DNA of 64,000 bases from Roseburia sp. Lineage in GTDB: Bacteria > Bacillota > Clostridia > Lachnospirales > Lachnospiraceae. Below are positions 1-9,732 of this stretch, one piece after another. How positions within the stretch are numbered: position 1 is the first letter of the stretch; each line of letters opens with the position of its first letter. Below the pieces are notes generated by a model. The model did no database searches. It saw nothing but the letters and a program-made list of their open reading frames with translations, and had not been told where the DNA came from. The stretch lies in contig JAPFDX010000012.1 in assembly GCA_026168605.1 (NCBI GenBank), positions 1 through 64,000 on the forward strand, in the 5' to 3' direction. The position numbers and the translations under genes were made by a program.

Positions 1-152
1 ACCTGATTCTTCAAATCTTCCGGCATATTCTTATCAATCCGAATCTCATTGGACAGATAATTGATCTCTCCTTTTCTCGGCTCAAATTTATTTACGGTAT
101 CTACCTCCTCTATTGTGTAATTTAAACCAAGAATGTTTATTGACCTTTTCAC
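1..152 (-). CDS. ImmA/IrrE-type metallopeptidase, N-terminal part (runs off left edge)
   Basis: The leftward frame opens with GTG at 150-152, eight bases after a strong AGGAGGTGA site at 161-169, and stays open to the window edge. The first 50 residues include NILGLNYTIEEV and GEINYLSNEIRIDKN, which match the start of short ImmA/IrrE-family proteases of phages and integrative elements. The zinc motif HExxH would follow a little further on, outside the window. Known members cleave XRE-type repressors to induce mobile elements, so the XRE repressor at 1963 is a possible substrate; that link is inference. The GTG start is supported by the ribosome binding site. Confidence 0.72.
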   Translation of the reverse strand, partial: MKRSINILGLNYTIEEVDTVNKFEPRKGEINYLSNEIRIDKNMPEDLKNQ

Positions 153-270
153 CTTCCCACTCACCTCCTGCCACTACACGGTTCTTTCCGACTTGCTTTT
201 TCACTCTATCCAACCTATACTTGTCTTATCAGTGTTGCCGCACTGAAATACCAGGAAAGGAGGTTTCCGC

Positions 271-438
271 ATGGATAAAAATCTTCATAATCCGGGAACT
301 GACAATCTTCCCAAAGGAGAATACAAGGAAGTCGGTCCCCGTGGCGGCGAAGTTCCACATCCCCGCCAAGTGACTATCGATCAGGGCGATCGCCTGCCTC
401 CGACCCAAGAAAAAGGTCGGAAATGGATAAAAGTCTGA
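271..438 (+). CDS. YjzC-like small protein
   Basis: This 55-residue gene has a strong AGGAGG site ten bases before its ATG. The protein is hydrophilic: it starts MDKNLHNPGTDNLPKGEYKE, continues with VGPRGGEV and GDRLPP, and ends in KGRKWIKV. The pattern PGT...G.Y.E.G..GG......GD..PPT....W resembles the Bacillus YjzC family, whose function is unknown. It is the only rightward gene among leftward small genes at this end of the element, and it converges with the gene ending at 472, with a hairpin between them. I assign the family from memory of the pattern, so the name is moderate while the gene itself is well supported. Confidence 0.7.
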   Translation: MDKNLHNPGTDNLPKGEYKEVGPRGGEVPHPRQVTIDQGDRLPPTQEKGRKWIKV

Positions 439-445
439 CTTGTCT

Positions 446-473
446 AAAAGCTGCTGCTCTTGCGGCGGCTTTT
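446..473. terminator. Bidirectional hairpin between convergent genes
   Basis: AAAGCTGCTGC pairs with GCGGCGGCTTT across a four-base TCTT loop, allowing G-T pairs, with short A and T runs outside. It lies between the rightward YjzC-like gene and the leftward operon ending at 472, where a shared terminator is expected. Confidence 0.6.
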
Positions 474-621
474 AGATTGCGATCCTTTTTCTGAAAAAAC
501 AGAACGATCGCCCAAACGCATTGATTTGAAACCATGCTTCTGCATACTTTCTCCCGTCTTCCTCATACTTCGTAAGATAATGCTTCAACCCTTTCACCTC
601 CTGCCACTTCTGTATCCTCAT
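472..621 (-). CDS. Small basic protein, last gene of leftward early operon
   Basis: A 49-residue protein, rich in Lys/Arg and aromatics (MRIQKWQEVKGLKHYLTKYE, ending FCFFRKRIAI). Its ATG overlaps the stop of the preceding gene as ATGA (618-621), so translation is probably coupled. A longer frame back to 738 exists but lies entirely within the preceding gene and is disfavoured. I do not recognise a family. It closes a run of six small leftward genes of a phage- or ICE-like element. Confidence 0.6.
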   Translation of the reverse strand: MRIQKWQEVKGLKHYLTKYEEDGRKYAEAWFQINAFGRSFCFFRKRIAI

Positions 622-1004
622 GCCTTTTCTACCGGAATCCCCATAATCTCCTGCTTCACTCTTATGTGATCTGCTGTGATTTCCACGGTTGTATATGGGT
701 CTCCTTTTTCCTCCAGCCAGTCTGCAATCGGTCTGCACAGTTTGTGCAGCTCCTCCGGTTCCAGCCTTCCCACATCTTTTCTGATTCCGCCAAAGCCCTG
801 ATTGATCGTCCTTCTCTCCACAACAAAATCAAATACTTCCATGTGATGCAGTTTTATATCCAGCTTCTCCGCTAAATACAGCGCATTTTCTTCATTTCCA
901 TTTTTCAGACAGCTCCTTAAGTTCAGCGCATACGCGCGCGCTTCTCTCGACAACTTCTCAAATTCTGCCAGATTGACGATTCTTTCTGATTCGATCTGCT
1001 TCAT
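618..1004 (-). CDS. Unknown mobile-element protein, 128 aa
   Basis: Starts MKQIESERIVNLAEFEKLSR. The ATG at 1002-1004 is preceded by GGGAGGTGAGAGGG, the same ribosome binding site used by its neighbours, so I prefer it over the in-frame ATG at 1022. The first half is predicted helical (REARAYALNLRSCL); the second half has a short mixed segment with TTVEITADHIRVKQ. No family recognised. Third from the end of the leftward operon. Confidence 0.68.
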   Translation of the reverse strand: MKQIESERIVNLAEFEKLSREARAYALNLRSCLKNGNEENALYLAEKLDIKLHHMEVFDFVVERRTINQGFGGIRKDVGRLEPEELHKLCRPIADWLEEKGDPYTTVEITADHIRVKQEIMGIPVEKA

Positions 1005-1086
1005 CCCTCTCACCTCCCTCAATGGTTCTTGTGCTTTCGCTGTCCTTGCAAAAAAAGCGATTCACGATGCAAAAAAGCAAGCCCCC

Positions 1087-1242
1087 TCAAACTCTTGTGC
1101 TGATAAGTAATTCCCGGGTCAAAGCAATCATTTTAAGCGTCTGTCTGCTTAATTTGGTTGCTTTTTCTTTCCTTATCATTTTCAATGTCTTTTTTGCGAC
1201 TTCCGCATAGATTAAATCTATGGTTCTTTTCTCCTGCTTCAT
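1087..1242 (-). CDS. Small basic helical protein, 51 aa
   Basis: Starts MKQEKRTIDLIYAEVAKKTL and is strongly basic and helical throughout. The ATG at 1240-1242 follows GGGAGGTGAGA at standard spacing. An upstream in-frame ATG at 1293 lies inside the preceding gene and is less likely. No recognised family. Part of the leftward operon whose genes share almost identical ribosome binding sites. Confidence 0.6.
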   Translation of the reverse strand: MKQEKRTIDLIYAEVAKKTLKMIRKEKATKLSRQTLKMIALTRELLISTRV

Positions 1243-1255
1243 CTTCTCACCTCCC

Positions 1256-1414
1256 TTATGATGCCGCCCGAACACAGACGTACACCAGAGCAATGCTATC
1301 TCCCAACGCTTTGCCTATAAGCCCCGCTCTCTCATACTCTTTGCAGTAGCACACTATTGAAAAAACATTTAAAAATAAAACAAGAGCAATGATACCGATC
1401 TCTATTCCTCTCAC
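1256..1414 (-). CDS. Possible small membrane protein, 52 aa (GTG start uncertain)
   Basis: An open frame between two well-supported small genes of the same operon. It contains one hydrophobic segment (IGIIALVLFLNVFSIVCY), then a short charged tail ending VCVRAAS. No ATG is available. The only reasonable starts are the GTG at 1412-1414, which overlaps the ribosome-binding sequence, or a rare ATA just after it. The coding call therefore rests on position, tight packing and the membrane segment. Confidence 0.42.
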   Translation of the reverse strand: MRGIEIGIIALVLFLNVFSIVCYCKEYERAGLIGKALGDSIALVYVCVRAAS

Positions 1415-1443
1415 CTCCCTGTTGCTACATCAGCCAGAAAAAT

Positions 1444-1629
1444 TTATAGTTTTACCGGTTTTTCCTTTATCATACTTTCTACATCCGACAAGATAATCTT
1501 GATAATTGCTGCAGTTTGGCATCTTTCCGGAAGTTCTTTTTTTATTGTTTTTATGATTTCTTCTGCGACTTTGTATTTGGTTAAGTTTGAAATTGCCACT
1601 CCACCAATATTCATACTGTAATCAAGCAC
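1444..1629 (-). CDS. Small mobile-element protein, 61 aa (GTG start)
   Basis: The frame extends further upstream, but GTG at 1627-1629 sits eight bases after GGGAGGTGAGA and gives a 61-residue protein starting VLDYSMNIGGVAISNLTKYK. The rest is helical and basic (AEEIIKTIKKELPERCQ, ending MIKEKPVKL). An internal ATG gives 56 residues. No recognised family. Second gene of the leftward operon. Confidence 0.58.
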   Translation of the reverse strand: MLDYSMNIGGVAISNLTKYKVAEEIIKTIKKELPERCQTAAIIKIILSDVESMIKEKPVKL

Positions 1630-1642
1630 CCCTCTCACCTCC

Positions 1643-1813
1643 CTACTGCTGCACCAGCTCATGCTCACACTTCGCATCCGCGCTGCATCCGCTCATTTTC
1701 TGATACATCAGAAGCGTATTCGCGCTGTTCTGCACAAGCATCCGCTGTGTGTTGTCTAACTGGCTCAATGTTTCTACTAAATTTTCCAGTTCCTCTTTTT
1801 CGTCTTTTGACAT
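1643..1813 (-). CDS. Small helical protein, first gene of leftward operon, 56 aa
   Basis: Starts MSKDEKEELENLVETLSQLD and ends KCEHELVQQ. The sequence is acidic, probably helical or coiled-coil, with two cysteines near the end. The ATG follows GGAGTGAGCAGG. It is the first gene behind the leftward promoter at 1855-1883, so it would be among the first products made when the XRE repressor is released. No family recognised. Confidence 0.6.
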   Translation of the reverse strand: MSKDEKEELENLVETLSQLDNTQRMLVQNSANTLLMYQKMSGCSADAKCEHELVQQ

Positions 1814-1839
1814 TCCTGCTCACTCCTTTCTTCTTGTTT

Positions 1840-1907
1840 GTTACTTATAGTTACATGATAATTTCTTACAGTTACTTTGTCAAGCATTTTTTGTTACTTT
1901 ACGTAAC
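1840..1907. promoter_or_regulatory. Operator repeats of the divergent XRE switch
   Basis: The five-base half-site GTTAC occurs at 1840, 1850, 1871 and 1893, and its complement GTAAC at 1903. The best operator is the palindrome GTTACTTTACGTAAC (1893-1907). Imperfect copies lie at 1840-1854 and 1871-1885. Together they overlap the leftward promoter and abut the -35 box of the rightward one, the arrangement of a phage repressor switch. Binding by the adjacent XRE protein is inference. Confidence 0.7.
1855..1883 (-). promoter_or_regulatory. Leftward sigma-A promoter of small-gene operon
   Basis: On the minus strand TTGACA (1878-1883) and TATCAT (1855-1860) are 17 bases apart. Transcription would start about 30 bases before the first small gene (start 1813). 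GTTAC repeats overlap the promoter, so repression by the XRE protein is likely. Confidence 0.7.
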
Positions 1908-1913
1908 TTTTTG

Positions 1914-1941
1914 TTGACATTGATTTTTCTGCTGATATAAT
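1914..1941 (+). promoter_or_regulatory. Rightward sigma-A promoter of XRE gene
   Basis: TTGACA (1914-1919) and TATAAT (1936-1941) are 16 bases apart. The GTTAC-GTAAC palindrome ends seven bases before the -35 box, consistent with autoregulation of the repressor gene beginning at 1963. Confidence 0.8.
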
Positions 1942-1962
1942 GAATACATGAAGGAGGTCTCT

Positions 1963-2349
1963 ATGAACGAAAGAATTAGATATCTAAGAAAAGAATTACT
2001 CGGTCTTACCTTAGAGAAATTTGGAGAACGACTTGGTGTTACAAAAGTTACTATCAGTCGATTGGAAAATGGCATAAATGCTGTAACAGATCAGATGTTT
2101 AAATCCATCTGCCGGGAGTTCAATGTGAATGAGGACTGGCTTCGTGATGGAATAGGCGAGCCCTTTGATCTACCAGAAGATGAGACTGCTGCCCTTGTAA
2201 CCGATATACTTATAGATCCGGACGATGAGGTCTACCGAACGATTTTGAATGTCGTCAAAACTTATCAGCAGCTAAACCCGGATGCCAAGAAAGTGCTCCG
2301 CGATTTCTGCTCGCAACTCACTGAAAACGCAAAAAACCGGAAAGACTAA
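1963..2349 (+). CDS. XRE-family repressor
   Basis: The 128-residue protein has an N-terminal XRE helix-turn-helix (residues about 5-62: LTLEKFGERLGVTKVTISRL is the recognition region) followed by FNVNEDWLRDG, common in phage repressors of this size. The C-terminal half is helical (IDPDDEVYRTILNVVKTYQQ) and probably dimerises. I chose the ATG after AAGGAGG at 1950-1956; an in-frame ATG 15 bases earlier lies too close to the promoter. It probably binds the GTTAC operators and holds the leftward operon silent. Confidence 0.88.
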   Translation: MNERIRYLRKELLGLTLEKFGERLGVTKVTISRLENGINAVTDQMFKSICREFNVNEDWLRDGIGEPFDLPEDETAALVTDILIDPDDEVYRTILNVVKTYQQLNPDAKKVLRDFCSQLTENAKNRKD

Positions 2350-2367
2350 TCGTCTCTCCGGTTTTTT
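2331..2367 (+). terminator. Terminator of XRE gene
   Basis: AAAAAACCGG at 2331-2340 pairs with CCGGTTTTTT at 2358-2367, with further pairing inside (AGAC with GTCT). The last codons of the XRE gene form the 5' arm. A second weaker hairpin with a T-run follows at 2397-2425, so read-through is doubly blocked. Confidence 0.8.
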
Positions 2368-2405
2368 CTGTAAAAACCAAGCTCATGATTTAAAAAGCGG
2401 AAAGC

Positions 2406-2531
2406 TCAAAGCCTTCCGTTTTTTTCTAAGTAGGACTTTAAAATTGTGTAAATTCTCTCTATAAATATCGCATCTCTTCTATCCAACATATCCACATATT
2501 CTTTGATTTTCTTCTTAAATTTATCTTCCAT
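2406..2531 (-). CDS. Small charged protein, 41 aa
   Basis: The ATG at 2529-2531 follows a good GGAGGG site. The protein, MEDKFKKKIKEYVDMLDRRD then AIFIERIYTIL and ending LEKNGRL, is helical and amphipathic. Similar very short proteins occur in Lachnospiraceae mobile elements, as I recall, but I cannot name a family. It has its own promoter (2596-2623) and its 3' end overlaps the hairpin at 2397-2425. Confidence 0.55.
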   Translation of the reverse strand: MEDKFKKKIKEYVDMLDRRDAIFIERIYTILKSYLEKNGRL

Positions 2532-2595
2532 GTTTCCCTCCGTGAATCTTCTCCTAGATTTGTTAGAGGGTTGCGCGCTTCCCTTTGATGTTTTT

Positions 2596-2623
2596 ATTGT
2601 ATCATGTGTAGTTAATTTTGCAA
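2596..2623 (-). promoter_or_regulatory. Promoter for the 41-aa gene
   Basis: On the minus strand TTGCAA (2618-2623) and TACAAT (2596-2601) are 16 bases apart, about 65 bases before the start codon at 2531. The rest of the 2532-2768 gap is AT-rich with no further gene seen. Confidence 0.5.
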
Positions 2624-2768
2624 TATTTTCACTGCATTTTTGTCAAAATTGGCAAGGTTTTGTAGTTTGATTGCCGATTTTTTTCTAAAGTTGTAGAATT
2701 TTCTTCGATTGTATGTTAATATACAGACGTATCTCCAATACAAAATCTAAAGAAAAGAGGATTTGATT

Positions 2769-3335
2769 ATGAAAAACAAACTTATTACCCTTTCACTTAC
2801 GTTTTGCCTATTGCTATCTATTAGTGCGTGCGGCTCTGGAAACACAGAACAGCCACAGCAAACTTCTACGCCAGAATCGCAGGCTTCTCAGGCTTCCAAT
2901 GATTTAGAAAAGACCCCTAATGCTGATACAGAAGTTGAAGTTGAAACTGAAACTGAATCCGCTGATGACGGAGTGATCAACTTTGATGGGGAAGGATTTA
3001 ATGTCACTTACCTCAGACACGAAATGTCAGAAGACTATGAGGGCAACCCTTGTGTTATTTTCTACTACAATTTCACAAATAATGGTGAGGAAAATACAAG
3101 TGCCACTGTTGCAACATCTTTCAAAGCCTTTCAAAACGGTATCCAGTGTGAAACTGCCATTTTAATGGATGCCCCAGAAGTATATGACAATTCCATGAAG
3201 GAAATACAGCCTGGTGCAACGATTGAAGCGTGTCAGGCATTCTCCGTCAGCGATACTTCCGATGTTCAGATTGAAGTATCTTCCTTTTTGTCATTCGATG
3301 ATGCAAAAGATGTTCAGGTTCTTACATTAGAATAG
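2769..3335 (+). CDS. Secreted lipoprotein with DUF5067-like domain
   Basis: The 188-residue precursor has a lipoprotein signal (hydrophobic LITLSLTFCLLL, lipobox SISAC, mature Cys near residue 21). A Ser/Thr/Gln/Glu-rich linker follows to about residue 75. A beta-rich domain then begins FDGEGFNVTYLRHEM and contains VIFYYNFTNNGEENTS, typical of DUF5067, a family of Gram-positive extracellular lipoproteins of unknown role. The ATG at 2769 follows AAAGAGGA. As cargo of a mobile element it could modify the cell surface; this is inference. Confidence 0.75.
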   Translation: MKNKLITLSLTFCLLLSISACGSGNTEQPQQTSTPESQASQASNDLEKTPNADTEVEVETETESADDGVINFDGEGFNVTYLRHEMSEDYEGNPCVIFYYNFTNNGEENTSATVATSFKAFQNGIQCETAILMDAPEVYDNSMKEIQPGATIEACQAFSVSDTSDVQIEVSSFLSFDDAKDVQVLTLE

Positions 3336-3351
3336 TTTGATATGCCTTTTT

Positions 3352-3378
3352 AAGCCTCCGCTCCTGCGGGGGCTTTTT
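3352..3378 (+). terminator. Terminator after DUF5067 lipoprotein
   Basis: AAGCCTCCGC pairs with GCGGGGGCTT across a TCCT loop, followed by a T-run. It separates the two lipoprotein genes. Confidence 0.85.
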
Positions 3379-3453
3379 CATTCTATTCTAGCATTTTCTA
3401 CATATGTATGTTATTATGTGGTTATCATTACAAAACACAAAGGAGATTTACTT

Positions 3454-4089
3454 ATGAAAAGAAAAATTGTTACTTCGCTACTGATCTGCACACTCGCACT
3501 CTCCGGATGCGGCGCCTCCGGTGCTCCGGCTGACACCTCCGACGTATCATCCGAGACTTCCACAGAAGGGGACGTCTCAGATCTGGATGTCATTGGGGAT
3601 ATCGAAGTTGACGAGAATCTTCTCACAATGGAATTTACCGTTCCTGCTGATTATGTTGAGGAAACCTCGCAGGAGGAACTCGACGCCATCGCACAGGAGC
3701 ATGGTTACAAATCCGTGACACTGAATGAAGACGGAAGCGCCACCTACGTCATGACCAAAGGACAGCACAAAGAAATGATGGATGAAATGGCAGAATCCAT
3801 CAACACCGAACTCGCAAAAATGATTGGTTCCGAAGATTATTCAACGATCACTGACATTACCGCGAATGATGACTTTACAGAATTTACCGTTACCACGACA
3901 TCCACGGAGCCAAGCCTGAATGAATCTTTCGCAGTCATTATTTTCTATATGTACGGCGGTATGTACAATATCTTTAACGGCACTCCCGTTGACAATGTTC
4001 ATGTCGACTTTGTAAATGCAGACTCCGGAGAAATCATCGGTTCTTCTGATTCCTCTGAAACGGAAAGCACACAGCAGCCTGCGGAATAG
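3454..4089 (+). CDS. Secreted lipoprotein of unknown function, 211 aa
   Basis: The ATG at 3454 follows AAAGGAGAT. The precursor starts MKRKIVTSLLICTLALSGCG with a clear lipobox (LSGC). An acidic Ser/Thr-rich linker (residues about 20-55) leads to a mixed alpha/beta domain containing MEFTVPADYV and EFTVTTTSTEP, ending in a low-complexity ETESTQQPAE tail. It probably sits on the outer face of the membrane. No family recognised. A longer frame back to 3337 has no ribosome binding site and would hide the signal peptide. Confidence 0.72.
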   Translation: MKRKIVTSLLICTLALSGCGASGAPADTSDVSSETSTEGDVSDLDVIGDIEVDENLLTMEFTVPADYVEETSQEELDAIAQEHGYKSVTLNEDGSATYVMTKGQHKEMMDEMAESINTELAKMIGSEDYSTITDITANDDFTEFTVTTTSTEPSLNESFAVIIFYMYGGMYNIFNGTPVDNVHVDFVNADSGEIIGSSDSSETESTQQPAE

Positions 4090-4102
4090 TAAGAATGTTT
4101 TT

Positions 4103-4127
4103 ATCCCCCACTTCGGTGGGGGATTTT
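4103..4127 (+). terminator. Terminator after second lipoprotein
   Basis: ATCCCCCAC pairs perfectly with GTGGGGGAT across a TTCG tetraloop, followed by TTTT. Confidence 0.9.
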
Positions 4128-4159
4128 ATATAACACATATAAAAATATTTGCTTTTATA

Positions 4160-4188
4160 TTGACAAATACTTTTATATTTGTTATTAT
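4160..4188 (+). promoter_or_regulatory. Promoter and operator of first HicAB locus
   Basis: TTGACA (4160-4165) and TATTAT (4183-4188) are 17 bases apart. An inverted repeat, CAAATA and TATTTG with a six-base spacer (4164-4181), fills the spacer region and is a plausible operator for the HicB antitoxin. Confidence 0.7.
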
Positions 4189-4211
4189 AATAATGTCAGG
4201 AGGGAACATAC

Positions 4212-4409
4212 ATGAAAAGTTATTCATCCAGAGAGGTTATCAAAATGCTGAAAGCGGACGGCTGGTATGAAGTAAATGTGGAGGGCAGCCATCACCAGTA
4301 CAAACATCCAACCAAAAAGGGACGTACCACAGTGAAACATCCTGACAAAGACATCCCGCTAAAAACGCTAAGACGCATTGAGGAACAGTCGGGGCTAAAA
4401 TTCAGATAG
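4212..4409 (+). CDS. hicA: HicA-family toxin (first copy)
   Basis: The 65-residue protein has the HicA dsRNA-binding-like fold pattern: SSREVIKMLKADGW, then GSHHQYKHP with the conserved catalytic histidine, then TTVKHPDKDIPLKTLRRI. Known HicA proteins are ribosome-independent mRNA interferases neutralised by HicB. Start follows AGGAGGG. The antitoxin gene lies 42 bases downstream in the same operon. Toxin-first order is standard for this family. Confidence 0.93.
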   Translation: MKSYSSREVIKMLKADGWYEVNVEGSHHQYKHPTKKGRTTVKHPDKDIPLKTLRRIEEQSGLKFR

Positions 4410-4451
4410 CTCCGGCTCCCTCCCGGCACATCAAATTAAGGAGATGATACC

Positions 4452-4856
4452 ATGAAAAAAGTAGAACGCTATTTTTACCCCGCAGTTTTCGCCTATGAAG
4501 CAGGTCAGGAAATTTCTGTTGATTTTCCAGACTTAAGGTGCGCTACAAGCGGCATCAATGACGATGACGCACTCTTGTCGGCGAGAGAGCTTCTCGGCTG
4601 TGTCCTTTATGGTTTGGAGGAAGATGGCGAGGAAATCCCCGCCCCTACCCCGCTATCCGAGATCAAGGCAGCTCCGAATGAGCGGGCGGTTCTCGTGGAT
4701 GTGTATATGCCGTCCATTCGTCAGGCTCATGTGAATCGTTCCGTCAACCGCACGGTAACACTTCCGGCTTGGCTCAATGCCGCGGCACTGGAGCGCAATA
4801 TCAATTTCTCGCAGGTATTGCAGGACGCTTTGAAGTCACAACTGCACATCGGTTAG
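4452..4856 (+). CDS. hicB: HicB-family antitoxin (first copy)
   Basis: The 134-residue protein opens with the HicB partial-RNase-H-like domain (FYPAVFAYEAGQEISVDFPD, DDALLSARELLG). Its C-terminal segment, VTLPAWLNAAALERNINFSQ followed by VLQDALK, is the ribbon-helix-helix-type DNA-binding tail seen in HicB proteins. It should neutralise the adjacent HicA and repress the operon. The tail is nearly identical in design to the second copy at 7196, but the N-terminal halves differ. Confidence 0.93.
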   Translation: MKKVERYFYPAVFAYEAGQEISVDFPDLRCATSGINDDDALLSARELLGCVLYGLEEDGEEIPAPTPLSEIKAAPNERAVLVDVYMPSIRQAHVNRSVNRTVTLPAWLNAAALERNINFSQVLQDALKSQLHIG

Positions 4857-4877
4857 CCTGAAGCATGGAGAATCTGT

Positions 4878-5105
4878 ATGAACTGCTTTTTATGCAAAGG
4901 CAGCTTGACTGCTGCCACAACTTCCTATATGACCACTTGCCACAACTGCTGCATCATCATCAAAAATGTTCCATGCTCCAGGTGCAGCCAGTGCGGCAAA
5001 GAATTTATTAACGGCACATCCCTGCTCAAGATCGAAAAGATTGTTGACAGCCTATCCCCCATGATGGCGGAAGTCGCTGTGATAGATTTTAAAAGTGTTG
5101 CGTAG
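4878..5105 (+). CDS. YgiT/MqsA-type zinc-finger protein
   Basis: The 75-residue protein starts MNCFLCKGSL, continues with KNVPCSRCSQCG, and carries several other Cys residues. This is the YgiT-type zinc finger found in MqsA-like antitoxins, usually partnered with a short toxin. No such partner is visible; instead it follows hicB by 21 bases and may be a third gene of that operon. It lacks the C-terminal HTH of full MqsA. The start lacks a strong ribosome binding site but gives the complete Cys motif. Confidence 0.68.
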   Translation: MNCFLCKGSLTAATTSYMTTCHNCCIIIKNVPCSRCSQCGKEFINGTSLLKIEKIVDSLSPMMAEVAVIDFKSVA

Positions 5106-5127
5106 CTGGATGTGGAATGATAGAAAA

Positions 5128-5155
5128 GAGGAGGCTTTCGCTCCTCCTTCTCTCT
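5128..5155. terminator. Terminator after HicAB-YgiT operon
   Basis: AGGAGG pairs with CCTCCT across an eight-base loop, with purine- and pyrimidine-rich flanks. The gap 5106-5265 is otherwise AT-rich with no gene seen. Confidence 0.5.
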
Positions 5156-5265
5156 TCTTCTCCATCTTTCTGAATAAATTTTCAATATTTTGTAGTTTGA
5201 TAACTTGACGATTACTTTTGACATGATATAATTTATATCAAAATACTATTTTTTATCTGGAATAC

Positions 5266-5293
5266 TTGACAAGACATCTACATATGATATAAT
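5266..5293 (+). promoter_or_regulatory. Promoter of the Abi leader RNA
   Basis: TTGACA (5266-5271) and TATAAT (5288-5293) are 16 bases apart. Transcription would start near 5300, directly before the structured leader RNA and 80 bases before the Abi gene. Confidence 0.85.
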
Positions 5294-5299
5294 GTAGCT

Positions 5300-5363
5300 G
5301 ATTAGCGAATGACTGCTGTGCGGTCGCAGAGAAAGTCTTGGATTTTATTCCAAGGCTTTTTTT
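5300..5363 (+). ncRNA. Candidate short antitoxin-type RNA upstream of HEPN Abi gene
   Basis: Between a strong promoter and the Abi start codon lies a sequence of about 64 nt with two hairpins. GACTGC pairs with GCGGTC across a TGT loop (5311-5325), flanked by GCGA and GC. Then AGTCTTGGA (5334-5342) pairs fully with TCCAAGGCT (5349-5357, one G-U pair), followed by seven T: a complete intrinsic terminator placed before the gene. The usual product would be a short RNA, with occasional read-through making the protein. Abi_2/AbiF HEPN proteins are known to be encoded with such upstream RNAs. Exact ends are inferred. Confidence 0.7.
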
Positions 5364-5381
5364 GCGTTAAGGAGTCATACT

Positions 5382-6443
5382 ATGGACGAAATCATTTATA
5401 CAACACCATCAGAACAATTACAAAAACTAAAAGAGCAACATTTGATCATCGAGGATGAAGCTTTTGCTACAAAAGCACTTGCAAATTTTGGATACTCTAA
5501 CTTAATAAAAAGCTACCGGGAACCATATATGTTTATTTCGGATGACAAGAAAATATATCGCTCTGGTATTACCTTTAACCGGATTTATTCACTATACTTC
5601 CTCGATAAAACACTACGAAATGCCGTCATGGCAACGATGCTTGATTTGGAAGAATATGTCAAAGAGGCTGCTGCCAACATTATTTCCAATGACTTTGGGA
5701 CACATCCCGAGGATTATTTAAAATTCAGAAATTATGCAAACAAAAGAAAGCGAAAAGATCGTTTCTCCCTTGCAGGTGTTCTTAAAACGATGAACAACAC
5801 TCTCAACACTGACAAAAATCCTATTCATCATTATCAGGAAACTCATGGCATTGTTCCTCCATGGATTCTTTTTAAAAGTGTATACTTTAGCACCATTACA
5901 AATTTTATTGACCAATTCAAGACAGCACAGAAAAACAAGCTTGTTCATAAGCTTTATGACCTTTCTGACCTAAAAATTAGCGAAGATGCTGCGCGTCTAC
6001 TCATGATGGATACCTTATTTACTTGTCAGGAATACAGAAATACTGCTGCGCACGGAGGACGTATATACAACTATAATGTGCACTGCACTTTGCACACAGA
6101 AAAAATCTGGGGACTTGACTCAAACAACACAAAATCCGGCTTCAGTCAGTTACTGTTCCTATTGGATCTTTTAAAATATAGGAAACCATATAAATATTTA
6201 CAAACTATTTTGACTGATGAAGTAAACAGACATTGCTCTCATTTCCCAGAAGATGTTACCTACTTGGCGCAAATACTCAATGTTGATATTGAAAGACACC
6301 ATGTTGTTTATATTTCTGGTCGTTCTAAGAAGTATCACAATGACCCGCATTGTAGCGGCTTAGCTAATGCACGTGAAGTTCTATTTGAAGAAGCCGAAAA
6401 GGATGGATATCTTCCATGCAAAAGATGTTGCTTATATAATTAA
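5382..6443 (+). CDS. Abi_2/AbiD-AbiF family HEPN protein with C-terminal metal-binding-like tail
   Basis: The 353-residue protein has the Abi_2 architecture: helical N-terminal half with ALANFGYSNLIKSYREPYMF, then KTLRNAVMATMLDLEEYVKE, and the HEPN motif RNTAAH (Arg219-His224, R-x4-H) that forms the RNase active site in this superfamily. Residues about 300-353 (VYISGRSKKYHNDPHCSGLA, then GYLPCKRCC) resemble the small Ada-like Cys domain found at the end of some nucleases; this is not usual in plain Abi_2 proteins. Start follows AAGGAG. Likely an abortive-infection or toxin RNase controlled by the RNA just upstream; function is inferred from family. Confidence 0.85.
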   Translation: MDEIIYTTPSEQLQKLKEQHLIIEDEAFATKALANFGYSNLIKSYREPYMFISDDKKIYRSGITFNRIYSLYFLDKTLRNAVMATMLDLEEYVKEAAANIISNDFGTHPEDYLKFRNYANKRKRKDRFSLAGVLKTMNNTLNTDKNPIHHYQETHGIVPPWILFKSVYFSTITNFIDQFKTAQKNKLVHKLYDLSDLKISEDAARLLMMDTLFTCQEYRNTAAHGGRIYNYNVHCTLHTEKIWGLDSNNTKSGFSQLLFLLDLLKYRKPYKYLQTILTDEVNRHCSHFPEDVTYLAQILNVDIERHHVVYISGRSKKYHNDPHCSGLANAREVLFEEAEKDGYLPCKRCCLYN

Positions 6444-6537
6444 AATGGAAAGTATCCCACTGTTTCATGCCAACAAGCATAATAAGAATATACCATTTTG
6501 CCTATGCTGGCAAAATCATAGAAACTATTATCCACCT

Positions 6538-6600
6538 AAAAAGGCTCTAGGCAGTCCGGCTCCAAGTATATTGGAACAACCGGCTCCTAGAGCCTTTTTA
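6538..6600. terminator. Bidirectional terminator between Abi gene and HTH gene
   Basis: AAAAAGGCTCTAGG at 6538-6551 pairs with CCTAGAGCCTTTTT at 6586-6599. The interior also pairs (CCAA with TTGG). It serves both convergent genes and includes the last base pairs of the HTH gene. Confidence 0.85.
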
Positions 6601-6846
6601 TATCTGCTCCTCCTCTTCTTTCTCGCTTTCCACCCTAATCTCATACCCGTCGCTCTCGATCGTGAACAGATCCATGATCGGCGTCTTTAGCGCCGCAGAG
6701 AAGCACACCAGATCCACCAGCGTCGGGCAGCGCTGCGCCCGGATGGTTCGGTAGATGGTTCTCTCACTGATCTTCATATACGGTGCGATGTCCTTCGGCG
6801 TCAGTTTTTTCTCGTCCATAATTTCCTGAAAATGTAAATGTATCAT
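6598..6846 (-). CDS. Small HTH protein (XRE-like), 82 aa
   Basis: Residues about 14-60 form an XRE-like helix-turn-helix: KKLTPKDIAPYMKISERTIY followed by RTIRAQRCPTLVDLVCFSAAL. An acidic tail (RVESEKEEEEQI) follows. Small stand-alone proteins like this usually act as local regulators. It is divergent from the second HicAB locus with about 130 bases between, so it might also bind there; that is a guess. Internal ATGs offer a shorter start. Confidence 0.68.
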   Translation of the reverse strand: MIHLHFQEIMDEKKLTPKDIAPYMKISERTIYRTIRAQRCPTLVDLVCFSAALKTPIMDLFTIESDGYEIRVESEKEEEEQI

Positions 6847-6903
6847 GTCTTATATGATAACATCCTCCTCTGCATATTCCTACTGGTAGTTTCTGGATTT
6901 TAG

Positions 6904-6953
6904 CGTAAATTTACGTATTCCCTATTGACTTACGTATATTTACGTATTATAAT
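6904..6953 (+). promoter_or_regulatory. Promoter and operators of second HicAB locus
   Basis: TTGACT (6925-6930) and TATAAT (6948-6953) are 17 bases apart. CGTAAATTTACG (6904-6915) is a perfect 12-bp palindrome, and CGTATATTTACG (6933-6944) is a near copy within the promoter spacer, 29 bases away. Paired operators like these suit binding by HicB; they are unrelated to the CAAATA operator of the first locus. Confidence 0.78.
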
Positions 6954-6973
6954 AAGATCATACAAAGGAGGAA

Positions 6974-7171
6974 ATGCAGGATATGCCAATGATGCCACGA
7001 GAGATGATCCGTCTCTTACAGAAAAACGGTTTTGAAACCATCAGTCAGAACGGTTCCCATGTAAAATTACGAAACAGCGAAACCGGAAAAACAGTGATCG
7101 TTCCCTACCACAACAAGGCTCTGAAAAAGGGACTTGAACACCAGATTTTAAAGCAGGCGGGGCTTATATAG
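6974..7171 (+). CDS. hicA: HicA-family toxin (second copy)
   Basis: The 65-residue protein carries MIRLLQKNGFETISQNGSHV and PYHNKALKKGLEHQILKQAG, the HicA pattern with the catalytic His in GSH. It follows AGGAGG very closely; an internal ATG three codons later would give better spacing. hicB lies 24 bases downstream. It is only distantly similar to the copy at 4212, so the two pairs are probably independent systems rather than a recent duplication. Confidence 0.92.
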   Translation: MQDMPMMPREMIRLLQKNGFETISQNGSHVKLRNSETGKTVIVPYHNKALKKGLEHQILKQAGLI

Positions 7172-7195
7172 CCCGCCGGACACAAGGAGGATTTT

Positions 7196-7600
7196 ATGAA
7201 TAAATTATTTTATCCCGCAGTTTTTCACAAGGCAGAAGAAGGAGGATTCTGGATCACCTTTCCCGACCTCCCGGAATGTATGACGCAGGGAGATACACTT
7301 GAGGAAGCCTATACGATGGCGATCGATGCCCTCGGTCTCTGCCTTGCAGATATGGAAAAGTCTCATGATCCCCTCCCGGAAGCAAGCGTGCCGAACACGA
7401 TCGAGCTTGGAGCCGACGATTTCCTTATGTTGGTCGAGTTTGATATGCTCGCTTACAAGAAACGCACGAACCCTTCGTTTGTCAAAAAAACCCTTTCCAT
7501 CCCCGGGTGGCTGAACGAGGAGGCGCTCGCGCTCAATGTCAACTTCTCTCAGGTATTGCAGGAAGCTCTCACGGAACTCGTTACCAGACAACGCGCCTAG
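7196..7600 (+). CDS. hicB: HicB-family antitoxin (second copy)
   Basis: 134 residues: N-terminal HicB domain (FYPAVFHKAEEGGFWITFPD, LPECMTQGDTLEEAYTMAID) and C-terminal DNA-binding tail (LSIPGWLNEEALALNVNFSQ). It should inhibit the neighbouring HicA and repress the promoter at 6925-6953. The integrase gene follows after 35 bases without a terminator, so this toxin-antitoxin operon may also drive or influence integrase expression. Confidence 0.93.
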   Translation: MNKLFYPAVFHKAEEGGFWITFPDLPECMTQGDTLEEAYTMAIDALGLCLADMEKSHDPLPEASVPNTIELGADDFLMLVEFDMLAYKKRTNPSFVKKTLSIPGWLNEEALALNVNFSQVLQEALTELVTRQRA

Positions 7601-7616
7601 TTGCACTGGTGCAACT
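7599..7616. promoter_or_regulatory. Perfect 18-bp palindrome between hicB and the integrase
   Basis: AGTTGCAC and GTGCAACT flank a two-base TG centre. The palindrome overlaps the hicB stop codon and lies 20 bases before the integrase start, where a repressor could control recombinase expression. It is too short in loop and lacks a T-run, so it is not an intrinsic terminator. Protein binder unknown. Confidence 0.5.
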
Positions 7617-7635
7617 TGAAGAATGAGGTATCACT

Positions 7636-9120
7636 ATGATTGAATCCATAAAAACCGGCGCGCTCTATATCCGCGTCTCCACCGACAAGCAGGAAGAACT
7701 CTCCCCCGACGCACAGATCCGTCTCGGGCGCGAATATGCCGCACAGCACAAGATCCATATCCCGGACGAGTATATCTTCCGCGATGACGGCATCTCCGGC
7801 AAAAAGGCTGACCGCCGTCCCGGGTTTAAGGCGCTCATCGCACTGGCGCGCTCCAAGGAGCACCCGATCGACTGCATTCTCGTGTGGAAGTTCAGCCGCT
7901 TTGCCCGCAATCAGGAGGAAAGCATCGTCTACAAGTCCATGCTCGCACGCGACCATGTTGAAGTGATCAGCATCTCCGAGCCGCTCCCGGACGGTCCATT
8001 CGGCGCGCTCAACGAGCGTATCATCGAATGGATGGATGAATATTACCTGACCAACCTTTCTTCCGAAGTGACCCGCGGAATGACGGAGAACGCGATGCGC
8101 GGCAACTATCAGGCGTCCCCCGGCATCGGTTACCGCTCCCCCGGTCCTAAGCAGGTCCCGGAGAAAGACCCTGACACCTTCCCGGTCATCGCCTTCTGTG
8201 ACCGCGCCTTTATGCAGGAGCATCTGACACTCCGGCAGATCGCCTTACAGCTCAACGCTATGGGCTACAAGACAAAGCGCGGCAACGCCTTTGACGCGCG
8301 CGGCGTCGAGTATATTCTGCGCAATCCGTTCTACGCTGGAAAAATCCGCTGGAATTACACCGAGCGCGGGCGCCGCTTAAAGCCCTCCGAGGACGTAATC
8401 CTCGTTGACGGCAGGCATGAGCCTGCATGGAGCTGGGAGCACCATCTGGAGATCCAGAAGCGGCTGGATGATCTGGCTGACATCAATAAGCGCTCCGACA
8501 GCCGGAAAAAGCGTGACGTCTCCTCCTGCCACCACTGGCTCTCCGGTCTCCTTGTCTGCTCCTCGTGCGGAAAGACTTTAGCTTACACCGGAAGCGCGCG
8601 CTGCAAGAGTTTTCAGTGCTGGGCTTACTCGAAGGGAATGTGTCAGGAATCCCATGCGATCCTCGTCAAAAAGGCAGAGGAGTATGTGATCGAGGGACTG
8701 GCACAGCTTCTGGTGTCTGACCGCCTGCAGTACAGCATCGTTCCGGCGACGTCCTCGTCCTCCGCCCGCGAGCAGGAACTCCGCCAGATGCTCACACGCC
8801 TTGACCAGCGGGAGAAACGCGCAAAAGACGCCTATCTGAATGAGATCGACACGATCGAGGAGTACAAAGAGACACGGATGAAGATACAGAGTGAGCGCGG
8901 GCGTATTATGTCCGAGCTTGAGGCTATGACGTCTCCCGCTGTCGCCGCTTCGGATGATGATACCCGGATGATCGACAACGTGCAGGCGGTGCTCTCCGTC
9001 CTGCAGGATCCGGACACCGACTTTGCGAAAAAGGGGCTTGCGATCCGCAGTATCGTCGATAAAATCGTCTATGACCGCAAAAATACCAGCTTCGATTTCT
9101 ATCTGAAGCTGGTAAAATAG
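7636..9120 (+). CDS. Large serine recombinase (element integrase)
   Basis: The 494-residue protein has an N-terminal resolvase catalytic domain (YIRVSTDKQ with nucleophile Ser15, DDGISGKKADRRPGF, VWKFSRFARNQEES), a recombinase domain (about 170-270, GIGYRSPGPK to YAGKIRWNYTERGRR), a zinc ribbon (CSSCGKTLAYTG ... C...C, about 315-345) and a C-terminal coiled coil (REQELRQMLTRLDQREKRAK). These features define large serine integrases of phages, ICEs and skin elements. It ends about 35 bases from the junction with cotJC, the usual position of such an integrase relative to its attachment site. Confidence 0.95.
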   Translation: MIESIKTGALYIRVSTDKQEELSPDAQIRLGREYAAQHKIHIPDEYIFRDDGISGKKADRRPGFKALIALARSKEHPIDCILVWKFSRFARNQEESIVYKSMLARDHVEVISISEPLPDGPFGALNERIIEWMDEYYLTNLSSEVTRGMTENAMRGNYQASPGIGYRSPGPKQVPEKDPDTFPVIAFCDRAFMQEHLTLRQIALQLNAMGYKTKRGNAFDARGVEYILRNPFYAGKIRWNYTERGRRLKPSEDVILVDGRHEPAWSWEHHLEIQKRLDDLADINKRSDSRKKRDVSSCHHWLSGLLVCSSCGKTLAYTGSARCKSFQCWAYSKGMCQESHAILVKKAEEYVIEGLAQLLVSDRLQYSIVPATSSSSAREQELRQMLTRLDQREKRAKDAYLNEIDTIEEYKETRMKIQSERGRIMSELEAMTSPAVAASDDDTRMIDNVQAVLSVLQDPDTDFAKKGLAIRSIVDKIVYDRKNTSFDFYLKLVK

Positions 9121-9134
9121 CGGCTTCGCGGCAT

Positions 9135-9248
9135 TTATCTGTTATTGCCGTACAGTCCTCCATACTGGCTGATAATGATCTGTGCAATCTTTGCATTCGG
9201 CTTTGTGATCTTCACCGGATACTGAAGTCTTCTCTCATAATTCCACAT
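9135..9248 (-). pseudogene. cotJC: cotJC interrupted by the integrated element (5' fragment)
   Basis: The frame starts with ATG at 9246-9248, overlapping the cotJB stop (TGATG). It reads MWNYERRLQYPVKITKPNAK then IAQIIISQYGG, the conserved start of the CotJC manganese-catalase-like spore coat protein. After Gly31, where family members continue with DGEL and about 160 more residues, it changes to LYGNNR and stops. Sequence past the break belongs to the mobile element. The rest of cotJC is expected at the other end of the element, outside the window. Whether the gene is restored by excision cannot be seen here. Confidence 0.9.
9150..9162. other. Right attachment junction (attR) of the element in cotJC
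   Basis: The cotJC reading frame diverges from its family after the codons for QYGG (9156-9167 on the minus strand), so the crossover lies within or next to this short stretch. Serine integrases exchange at a central dinucleotide inside an att site of about 40-50 bp; the exact dinucleotide cannot be fixed without the left end. Confidence 0.75.
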
Positions 9249-9514
9249 CAGCAGTTACCCCCTTCCCACGGAAGCGGCACATCCGACCAGTCCCAGTAAT
9301 TTCCCGGTCTTGCCGTATCGATCGTGAGCGGTCCGTAATTTTCTGCATAGGCGCGCAGCGCAGCCCTGCGCTGTTCCGCATAATGGTTAAAATACTTTAA
9401 CGCCTCCTCATCCTTCGGATGCGTATCTAAATACTCCGTAATATCCACCACCGCGAAGCTGACCATATTGATCCAGTGCATCAACTGTTCACGGTTCATC
9501 TGACTCATCATCAT
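9248..9514 (-). CDS. cotJB: Spore coat protein CotJB
   Basis: 88 residues matching CotJB: QLMHWINMVSFAVVDITEYL then DTHPKDEEALKYFNHY and a C-terminal YGPLTIDTARPGNYWDWSDV segment typical of the family. Its start overlaps the cotJA stop (ATGA at 9511-9514) and its end overlaps the cotJC start, so the three genes are translated together. CotJ proteins are made in the mother cell and incorporated into the spore coat. Confidence 0.93.
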   Translation of the reverse strand: MMMSQMNREQLMHWINMVSFAVVDITEYLDTHPKDEEALKYFNHYAEQRRAALRAYAENYGPLTIDTARPGNYWDWSDVPLPWEGGNC

Positions 9515-9732
9515 AACCGGCAGACCCTCCCTCCCGCTAAGAACGGTTTATCCAGCTCCGGGAAAATCGTCCCTACCTCAAGTGCCTGATCCGGCTCATA
9601 TACATTGGTAAAGTACTGCCACGGCACATACGCCATCGCAAGCACATAGTCTTCTCTGGAAACAGGTGTTTCCTGCCTGCCCGTACATCCGCAGCCGCGC
9701 TCCGCAGCCTGCGGCATCGTGTAGCCTCTCAT
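9511..9732 (-). CDS. cotJA: Spore coat associated protein CotJA
   Basis: 73 residues with the CotJA core LAMAYVPWQYFTNVYEPDQA followed by LEVGTIFPELDKPFL. The N-terminal 25 residues (with GCGCTG) are variable. ATG at 9732 follows AGAGGATG; MPQ five codons later is an alternative. First gene of the cotJABC operon. Confidence 0.92.
   Translation of the reverse strand: MRGYTMPQAAERGCGCTGRQETPVSREDYVLAMAYVPWQYFTNVYEPDQALEVGTIFPELDKPFLAGGRVCRL

Follow-up and report, generated by a model that had tools for sequence, protein, structure and literature searches.

The 64,000-nucleotide window analysed here corresponds to positions 1 to 64,000 of contig JAPFDX010000012.1 (hereafter C36) from a Roseburia sp. 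genome of 2.73 Mb in 50 contigs (assembly GCA_026168605.1, 99.77% complete). It carries a cotJ spore-coat operon in which cotJC, the spore-coat manganese-catalase gene, is interrupted by an element ending in a large serine recombinase. An earlier note, written from the letters of the window, had described cotJA and cotJB as intact and cotJC as starting normally before breaking at the edge of an element whose recombinase faces the break. This description is borne out by domain matches (Table 1). The cotJC frame reads MWNYERRLQYPVKITKPNAKIAQIIISQYGG, then LYGNNR-stop. Thirty-one residues of the CotJC family, ending with IISQYGG (Gly31), precede the run-on into the element, and a CotJC profile built from 12 relatives matches the translation of 9141-9248 over residues 1-36 (E 4.1e-13). 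The recombinase is convergent with cotJC, with 14 bases between its end and the stop codon of the cotJC frame.

The earlier note had expected the rest of the gene, about 160 codons, at the other end of the element. A remainder was indeed found on another contig, C35, where positions 6078-6422 encode CotJC residues 23-137 (profile E 2.4e-64). The order on C35 is that of phage genes (tail-fibre-like, holin, endolysin), followed by an attachment (att) arm and by cotJC codons 32-136. At this break, named site A, the att arms are ATAACAGATAA in the window and TTATCTGTTAT on C35, and they form imperfect inverted repeats. Joining the two flanks at the shared core GGAGG gives a gapless, in-frame CotJC over codons 1-136 (net gap 0). 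To judge from the arms and the frame, C35 and C36 would be the two ends of one prophage, the contigs being unjoined in the assembly. The remainder is also not the single block that had been expected, as further breaks follow codon 136 and lie near codon 172. A second, intact cotJC elsewhere, a case raised in the earlier note, was not found in searches of the genome's own assembly.

In total, cotJC of this genome is broken at three sites (A, C, and D). Its pieces match the CotJC profile over codons 1-36 in the window, 23-137 on C35, and 166-197 on C22. The idea of one element in the gene is thus right for site A, the only site visible at both ends in this strain, and too simple for the gene as a whole. 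On C35, the CotJC frame is lost just after position 6419, following ...EDMAA, where it enters the arm of a second element at site C; this arm resembles arms in three other genomes (G040, G052, and G058). A third recombinase, of at least 488 amino acids, is encoded on C22 and points into ...RFGEGLRMVQEELDSKNF...-stop, at site D near codon 172. The C22 arm, TACTTCAATCTTCCCG, is an inverted repeat (1 mismatch in 16) of the arm found after RFGE elsewhere among the genomes. No close relative of the site-C recombinase was found in the strain's own genome, the best match having 30% identity. An insertion sequence at the second break had been guessed from an inverted repeat after C35:6433; it was dropped since similar arms recur in the three genomes named above.

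The site-A element has the tail-fibre-like, lysis, and repressor genes of a temperate phage on the two contigs read, which carry its ends. Comparison with PHROGs identified the tail-fibre-like protein (E 0.0005), the holin, and the endolysin on C35. The strain is probably a spore former, because SpoIVA is intact (C36:42082-43542, inside the window) and sigma-E/K-like factors are present, the latter scoring below the sigma-K model cut-off.

Table 1. Features of the cotJ operon and of the site-A element in the window (ORF, open reading frame; aa, amino acids)
Feature	Position	Strand	Basis or remark
cotJA, intact	9511..9732	-	PF11007, E 3.9e-20
cotJB, intact	9248..9514	-	PF12652, E 7.8e-30
cotJC 5′ piece, including run-on into the element to the stop	9135..9248	-	Translation and CotJC profile
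Host codons 1-31 of cotJC	about 9156-9248	-	Within frame 9135-9248
att core GGAGG, site A	9157..9161	-	Junction sequences; identical core before codon 32 on contig C35
Element-side att arm	9135..9156	-	Imperfect inverted repeat of the C35 arm
Site-A large serine recombinase, 494 aa	7636..9120	+	PF00239, PF07508, PF13408; points at the cotJC break
Recombinase-proximal prophage arm	1..9156	.	Other arm is C35:1-6080
Repressor	1948-2349		PHROGs match 1948-2346
HicAB-like pair	4212-4856		PHROGs match 4452-4853; HicA gene by ORF reading only
Abi-type gene	5382-6443		PHROGs match 5382-6440
HicAB-like pair	6974-7600		ORF reading only

The use of cotJC as an integration site, as proposed in the earlier note, is strongly supported by the relatives of the window recombinase. 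The best 80 of 150 relatives found in genome_contigs were analysed; their labels include Roseburia, Agathobacter, Blautia, Butyrivibrio, and Lachnospira. The same breakpoint with a cotJC piece is found at 55 of these loci. In 47 loci, the recombinase is followed by the piece after 0-400 bp, 14 of them beside the 5′ piece (L123 being counted here) and 33 beside the 3′ piece. The nearest relative (L068/L064, 80% identity) is also inside cotJC. Eight loci (L078, L085, L093, L095, L124, L132, L135, and L140) have further breaks at sites B and/or C, and pieces ending near codon 65-69 occur in other loci as well. In a tree of 82 rows, the window recombinase belongs to an all-cotJC clade of 11 rows (support 99/96). 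The target label changes 5 times for cotJC, vs 22.4 times in shuffled data, and 5 times for sleC, vs 13.1. The remaining 25 loci are outside cotJC: 14 are in or next to a SleC-like gene, one is at half of a pdaB gene, and 10 are in or near other or unassigned genes. Within the SleC-like set (L079, L084, L096, L099, L105, L108, L117, L128, L133, L134, L136, L137, L138, and L145), eight loci have the 5′ part of the gene and six the 3′ part, with within-group BLAST identities of 55-90%. One locus scanned per group gave SpoIID (weak, below cut-off) and PG_binding_1, and the name SleC, a cortex-lytic protein, is our own reading. The pdaB case, L115, contains half of the gene (TIGR02764, 107 of 191 positions, below cut-off).

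Surveys of the genus and of the family extend this picture. A Pfam model was run against 62 genomes of the genus and matched 49. One of them, G023, with a single weak partial match, was left out, giving a base of 48 that includes two genomes (G025 and G015) whose cotJC genes run off the contig. A split cotJC is present in 25 of these 48. Site A is occupied in eight genomes (G000, G010, G011, G019, G026, G028, G030, and G044; a single junction seen in G019) and site B in eight (G005, G020, G024, G049, G050, G051, G055, and G057; a single junction in the last five). Site C is occupied in six (G000, G002, G005, G040, G052, and G058; a single junction in G000, G040, and G052) and site D also in six (G000, G004, G054, G059, G060, and G061; a single junction in all). 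In G005, a single-contig genome, pieces 1-68, 58-150, and 146-197 follow each other in the same direction, at 2413128, 2458920, and 2484055. With spacings of ~45 kb and ~25 kb, two elements are thus inserted in one cotJC. A single contiguous element of ~24 kb is found in G002. In the family, one genome per genus was taken (160 genomes, completeness ≥90%), of which 104 had a cotJC match. Among the matches listed, 44 of 103 genomes, G000 included, have piece ends at A (18), B (15), C (9), or D (8), and 33 of the 44 have no listed full-length copy. This tally, reduced from 45 by the exclusion of G139, whose pieces end at contig edges with one starting at base 3, may still contain other contig edges, and its site-D assignments, based on C-terminal ends, are the softest. 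By its appearance, G089 has a plain frameshift. The location of the window-genome pieces on three contigs could also suggest an assembly or binning artefact, or the decay of a pseudogene mimicking a split. We consider this hardly credible: split genes are assembled contiguously on one contig in G005, G010, and G002 and at other loci, breaks are found repeatedly at identical codons, and in-frame rejoining was obtained for most of the pairs tested. It is virtually certain that cotJC is split by site-specific elements.

The four sites align at or beside CotJC residues E35, E65/H68, E136, and H169. In the solved manganese catalase structure 1jku, the corresponding chain residues, counted by hand, are 35, 66/69, 148, and 181, which we take to be metal ligands. 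The sites may plausibly have been chosen for the conserved DNA sequence of catalytic codons. The cores are GGnGG for A, GAATTAGC for B1, ATAGGTA for B2 (just before B1), the GAG codon for C, and a segment around CGnTTCGGnGA for D. Recombinases of different site types (A, B1, B2, C, and D; 9 compared) share 20-29% identity, vs 52-97% within B1 and 84% within C. At site A, the arms of most loci listed are like TTATAGGTTATTGCA...GGnGGnCC...TGCAATAACCTATAA, and the same core is flanked by different arms in a minority (e.g. L092, L095, L102, L113, L124, L126, and L132). When flank pairs were joined at the best of the candidate cores, 24 of 30 gave a gapless CotJC. The six others are G026, which has an in-frame stop, L127, G024, and L124, which have one extra codon and an ambiguous core, and G005 and G058, site-C cases for which the script required a core of at least 4 bases.

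Junctions of the opposite kind, as expected in a free element, were found in relatives. In IMG/VR, 75 contigs encode relatives of the recombinase and 8 of these have a cotJC piece. The viral contig of L163 carries a two-sided attP, AATTATAGGTTACTGCACTCCGGTGGACCGGAGTGTAATAACCTATTATA, and a degenerate attP pattern has 5 matches among the 239 loci fetched, all of them from the contigs of L163 and L239. In L239, the attP is situated between the C-terminus of a recombinase (46% identical to L086 over 71 residues) and phage-type ORFs; those on the opposite side read as endolysin, holin, and tail protein (reading only). This gene order would match the one predicted for an excised circle. No end repeat was found on the L163 contig, which ends 123 bases past the attP centre. 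Both attP sequences are junctions of relatives, carried on viral contigs. Together with the inverted-repeat arms and in-frame rejoining at short cores, they back cotJC as the attachment site.

A family of small ORFs (core ...GeyrlWdsLseEek..I...LN.rAl.aiGY...) occurs in 60 loci, including 56 of the 80 best relatives. Its profile was iterated from a seed taken from the same loci, and the E-values are not independent. The small ORF is on the strand opposite the recombinase, except in L106 and L121, and it is inside all 11 contiguous site-A elements of 3.1-6.8 kb. Those scanned gave no Pfam or NCBIfam match, and PHROGs gave weak matches to proteins of unknown function only (best phrog_26314, E 0.0014). 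A different small ORF (47 amino acids in G002) is found in the site-C elements of G002, G005, G040, and G058, at or just upstream of the recombinase start, and also in L085. Large serine integrases normally need a recombination directionality factor (RDF) for excision. In view of their size, position, and conservation, the small ORFs are candidate RDFs. L106:2611-2769 and L121:2577-2864 contain excision-factor-like ORFs downstream of cotJC and outside the site-A element, perhaps belonging to a further neighbouring element.

With starts chosen by ribosome-binding site, promoter patterns were counted over 75 bases of sequence preceding 57 distinct RDF candidates and 1365 other genes from these loci. 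The sequence CATAnnnTA, which we take to be the −10 form recognized by sigma-K, precedes 27/57 candidates vs 54/1365 other genes. Two longer patterns, A[AC][CG]-N17-CATA (30/57 vs 22/1365) and G[GT]ACAA-N9..11-CATA (17/57 vs 1/1365), were derived from the same sequences in which they were counted, which lessens their weight. CATA mostly lies 25-29 bases before the start codon. With longest-frame starts, A[AC]C-N17-CATA is found at 15/56 candidates vs 18/1775, and a strict −35/−10 pair at 10/56 vs 6/1000 (shuffles: mean 0.34, max 4). Before the RDF candidate of L068/L064, the closest relatives, AAC-N16-CATAGGATA is one base off the counted pattern. In G002 and G005, which are near-copies, GTACAAGCATTTTTGCATAC precedes the 47-amino-acid ORF and is of the same promoter kind. 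A sigma-E-type promoter was looked for and discarded (0/56 vs 11/1000 controls). From these patterns, a mother-cell sigma factor is predicted to transcribe the candidates. As for the upstream box, it may represent either the −35 element of sigma-K or a site for SpoIIID, whose consensus in C. difficile is given as KRTAACARK in the passages concerned (PMC5025042).

These promoters bear on the idea that the elements serve phase variation, moving in and out at random, with CotJC made by part of the population as a form of bet-hedging rather than in development. The near-palindromic att arms would suit such a system, as would the occurrence of the elements in both orientations. At L113:7889-12005, the 5′ piece of cotJC is inverted relative to the 3′ piece, either through a recombination flip between inverted att sites or through an assembly error. 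However, the general dependence of integrases on an RDF and the mother-cell-type promoters before many of the RDF candidates make random switching quite improbable.

The elements differ widely in size and cargo. Contiguous site-A elements range from 3.1 kb (L095, L102, and L132) to ~36 kb (G010), and the site-C element of G058 would measure ~3.4 kb, provided that the two contigs carrying it overlap in the way suggested by their ends. The smallest site-A elements contain the recombinase and the small ORF, with holin-like and endolysin-like genes (by reading) in L095, L102, L126, and L132. These are also the 4 of the 60 loci in which an endolysin-like ORF is downstream of the small ORF on the same strand. 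Elements of 3.1-4.6 kb keep the recombinase and the small ORF, and no phage structural gene was noticed among their listed ORFs. The smallest elements look like phages cut down to their two ends. In the four elements with lysis-like genes (3.1-3.8 kb), the excision-factor candidate and the holin-like and endolysin-like genes are co-directional, and such a minimal operon may help to lyse the mother cell. Two Roseburia loci (L078:6897-11448 and L081:6906-11477) have in common a 4.6 kb site-A element with an 850-amino-acid chemoreceptor-like cargo gene (by reading).

Whether the split pieces are still under selection was considered from the ratio of non-synonymous to synonymous substitution (dN/dS) in species pairs having like elements at the same site. 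In L124/L135, the piece enclosed by breaks A and B has a dN/dS of 0.015 (44 codons, dS 0.69), the recombinase being at 0.075. For L078/L081, the cotJC pieces give 0.05 (33 + 37 codons, dS ~0.7), the recombinase 0.13, and the RDF candidate 0.22. For L095/L102, the values are 0.04 for cotJC (32 codons), 0.13 for the recombinase, ~0.13 for the endolysin, and ~0.05 for the holin; for L126/L147, they are 0.025 for cotJC (33 codons) and 0.09 for the recombinase. Against a reading in terms of selection, other listed pairs reach 0.21 for cotJC (~32 codons), dS is saturated in the majority of pairs, and the values stand without an intact-gene baseline. This reading also assumes that the elements were already present in the common ancestor, which the like layouts support without proving it.

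These data should be set against another view, that of ordinary prophages residing in a dispensable gene. In that case, cotJC would be a handy conserved attB, the lysogen would live without CotJC, and excision would occur only on induction. The window element, a phage with lysis and tail-fibre-like genes, and the existence of free attP forms agree with it. Furthermore, in the passages concerned, B. subtilis mutants lacking CotJC show no apparent defect (PMC12122855) and C. difficile mutants of the CotJC family show little coat defect (PMC11222575). Permanent loss of CotJC could be tolerated because such mutants have mild or no defects. On the other side, pieces between elements have a dN/dS of 0.015-0.05 in species pairs sharing elements, elements of 3.1-4.6 kb have retained the recombinase and the small ORF, many small ORFs follow mother-cell-type promoters, and relatives also target the SleC-like and pdaB sporulation genes. 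Residence in a dispensable gene is unlikely on balance.

The mechanism that we propose is the following. The cotJC gene would be an integration hot spot for a variety of temperate phages and small elements. Each of them encodes a large serine recombinase of its own and would integrate at one of the zones A, B, C, and D, by the metal-ligand codons. A vegetative cell would carry cotJC divided into two to four parts. When a spore forms, the mother cell would produce a small RDF that switches the recombinase to excision, each element would leave as a circle, and cotJC would be rejoined in frame. The forespore chromosome would retain the elements, which would therefore be inherited. Mother-cell-timed excision is, in our opinion, probable in this group of bacteria. 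It is also probable in the window strain, to a somewhat lesser degree, because the assembled parts examined lack one cotJC piece and the RDF gene. The suggestion of the earlier note that excision occurs during sporulation is supported indirectly, though by converging lines: the low dN/dS of the split pieces, the mother-cell-type promoters before the RDF candidates of relatives, the SleC-like and pdaB genes split by related recombinases, and the predicted circle junction in two viral contigs.

Several observations weigh against the proposed mechanism. While the splits, att sites, in-frame joining, recombinases, recurrence, and attP junctions of relatives can be read in the sequences, excision during sporulation is inferred from them and has not been observed. 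The profile found no RDF candidate in the window, on C35, or on C22, and a small-ORF search in site-B elements gave nothing convincing. The promoter pattern is missing in roughly half of the RDF candidates. Before the recombinases, a sigma-A signal shows no enrichment (10/76 vs a shuffled mean of 12.3). Codons ~137-171 and most of the C element are absent from the 99.77%-complete assembly searched, and full restoration in this strain is unproven because these parts were not found. Among the matches listed in the family survey, 11 genomes have a full copy of cotJC beside the split one. In the split copy of G026, the 3′ piece is interrupted by an in-frame stop, and the mild phenotypes of CotJC mutants, given above, point the same way. 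The G026 stop is a TGA (L057:705-707) at the place where the conserved cysteine of NACEF is expected, and may reflect decay, error, or recoding.

The cotJC elements are of a known kind, with a new target and an unusual multiplicity. Split sporulation genes have been described for sigK, spsM, spoVFB, gerE, kamA, and yabG in the passages concerned (PMC5595907, PMC10747680, PMC6957869, PMC4191935, PMC5025042). No report of a split cotJC or sleC was recognized in literature searches limited to open-licence PMC text. The skin element in sigK of C. difficile and B. subtilis is likewise a large serine recombinase element in a mother-cell sporulation gene. The target differs, however, and cotJC hosts several unrelated elements. 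In C. difficile, the small RDF CD1234 (72 amino acids) is described as setting the timing of skin excision through its mother-cell promoter (PMC5025042). The candidate small ORF of the cotJC elements may be its counterpart, to judge from size and promoter. SP-beta of B. subtilis is a phage in the spore-envelope gene spsM, excised in sporulation, and a sigma-E/K-type −10 lies directly upstream of its sprB (58 amino acids), according to the passages concerned (PMC4191935). SP-beta is one element at one site, whereas cotJC has four zones, up to three of which are occupied together. The gin element in gerE of B. cereus and the yin element in yabG of C. botulinum, non-phage or phage-like, are also serine-recombinase elements in sporulation genes; in the relevant passages they are reported for single strains (PMC5595907, PMC10747680), whereas cotJC splits recur in one gene across a family. 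The nearest precedent seems to be phi027 of C. difficile R20291, which adjoins a CotJC-like gene (cotG / CDR20291_1465). In the passages concerned, this gene is downstream of attR and is not described as split, and developmental excision is not mentioned (PMC11222575, PMC12122855).

Taking these data together, it is tempting to consider cotJC as resembling a gene with DNA introns, with up to three unrelated elements and several independent mother-cell-timed excisions on which production of the enzyme would depend. Phages, shrunken phages, and small elements would have converged time and again on four metal-ligand regions, and an integrase clade with a mother-cell-controlled excision factor would have specialised in sporulation genes (cotJC, SleC-like, pdaB). 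As a joint proposition, we give this a little more than an even chance. Developmental phage excision from sporulation genes is so far known from a handful of strains. If the proposition is true, it would be a routine lifestyle in a dominant gut family, and one gene would be a common docking site for unrelated elements. Many natural replicates would then be available for studying why phages favour mother-cell genes, how several excisions come to be coordinated, and how phages shrink to a recombinase and an excision factor. It would also show what escapes annotation when spore-coat genes are recorded as missing or broken. New serine-integrase tools would come from the candidate RDF family and from the att sites. 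Finally, four phage records from the gut virome (MT839049, MT839831, MT839280, and MT835881) contain pieces of cotJC that break off at sites B and C.

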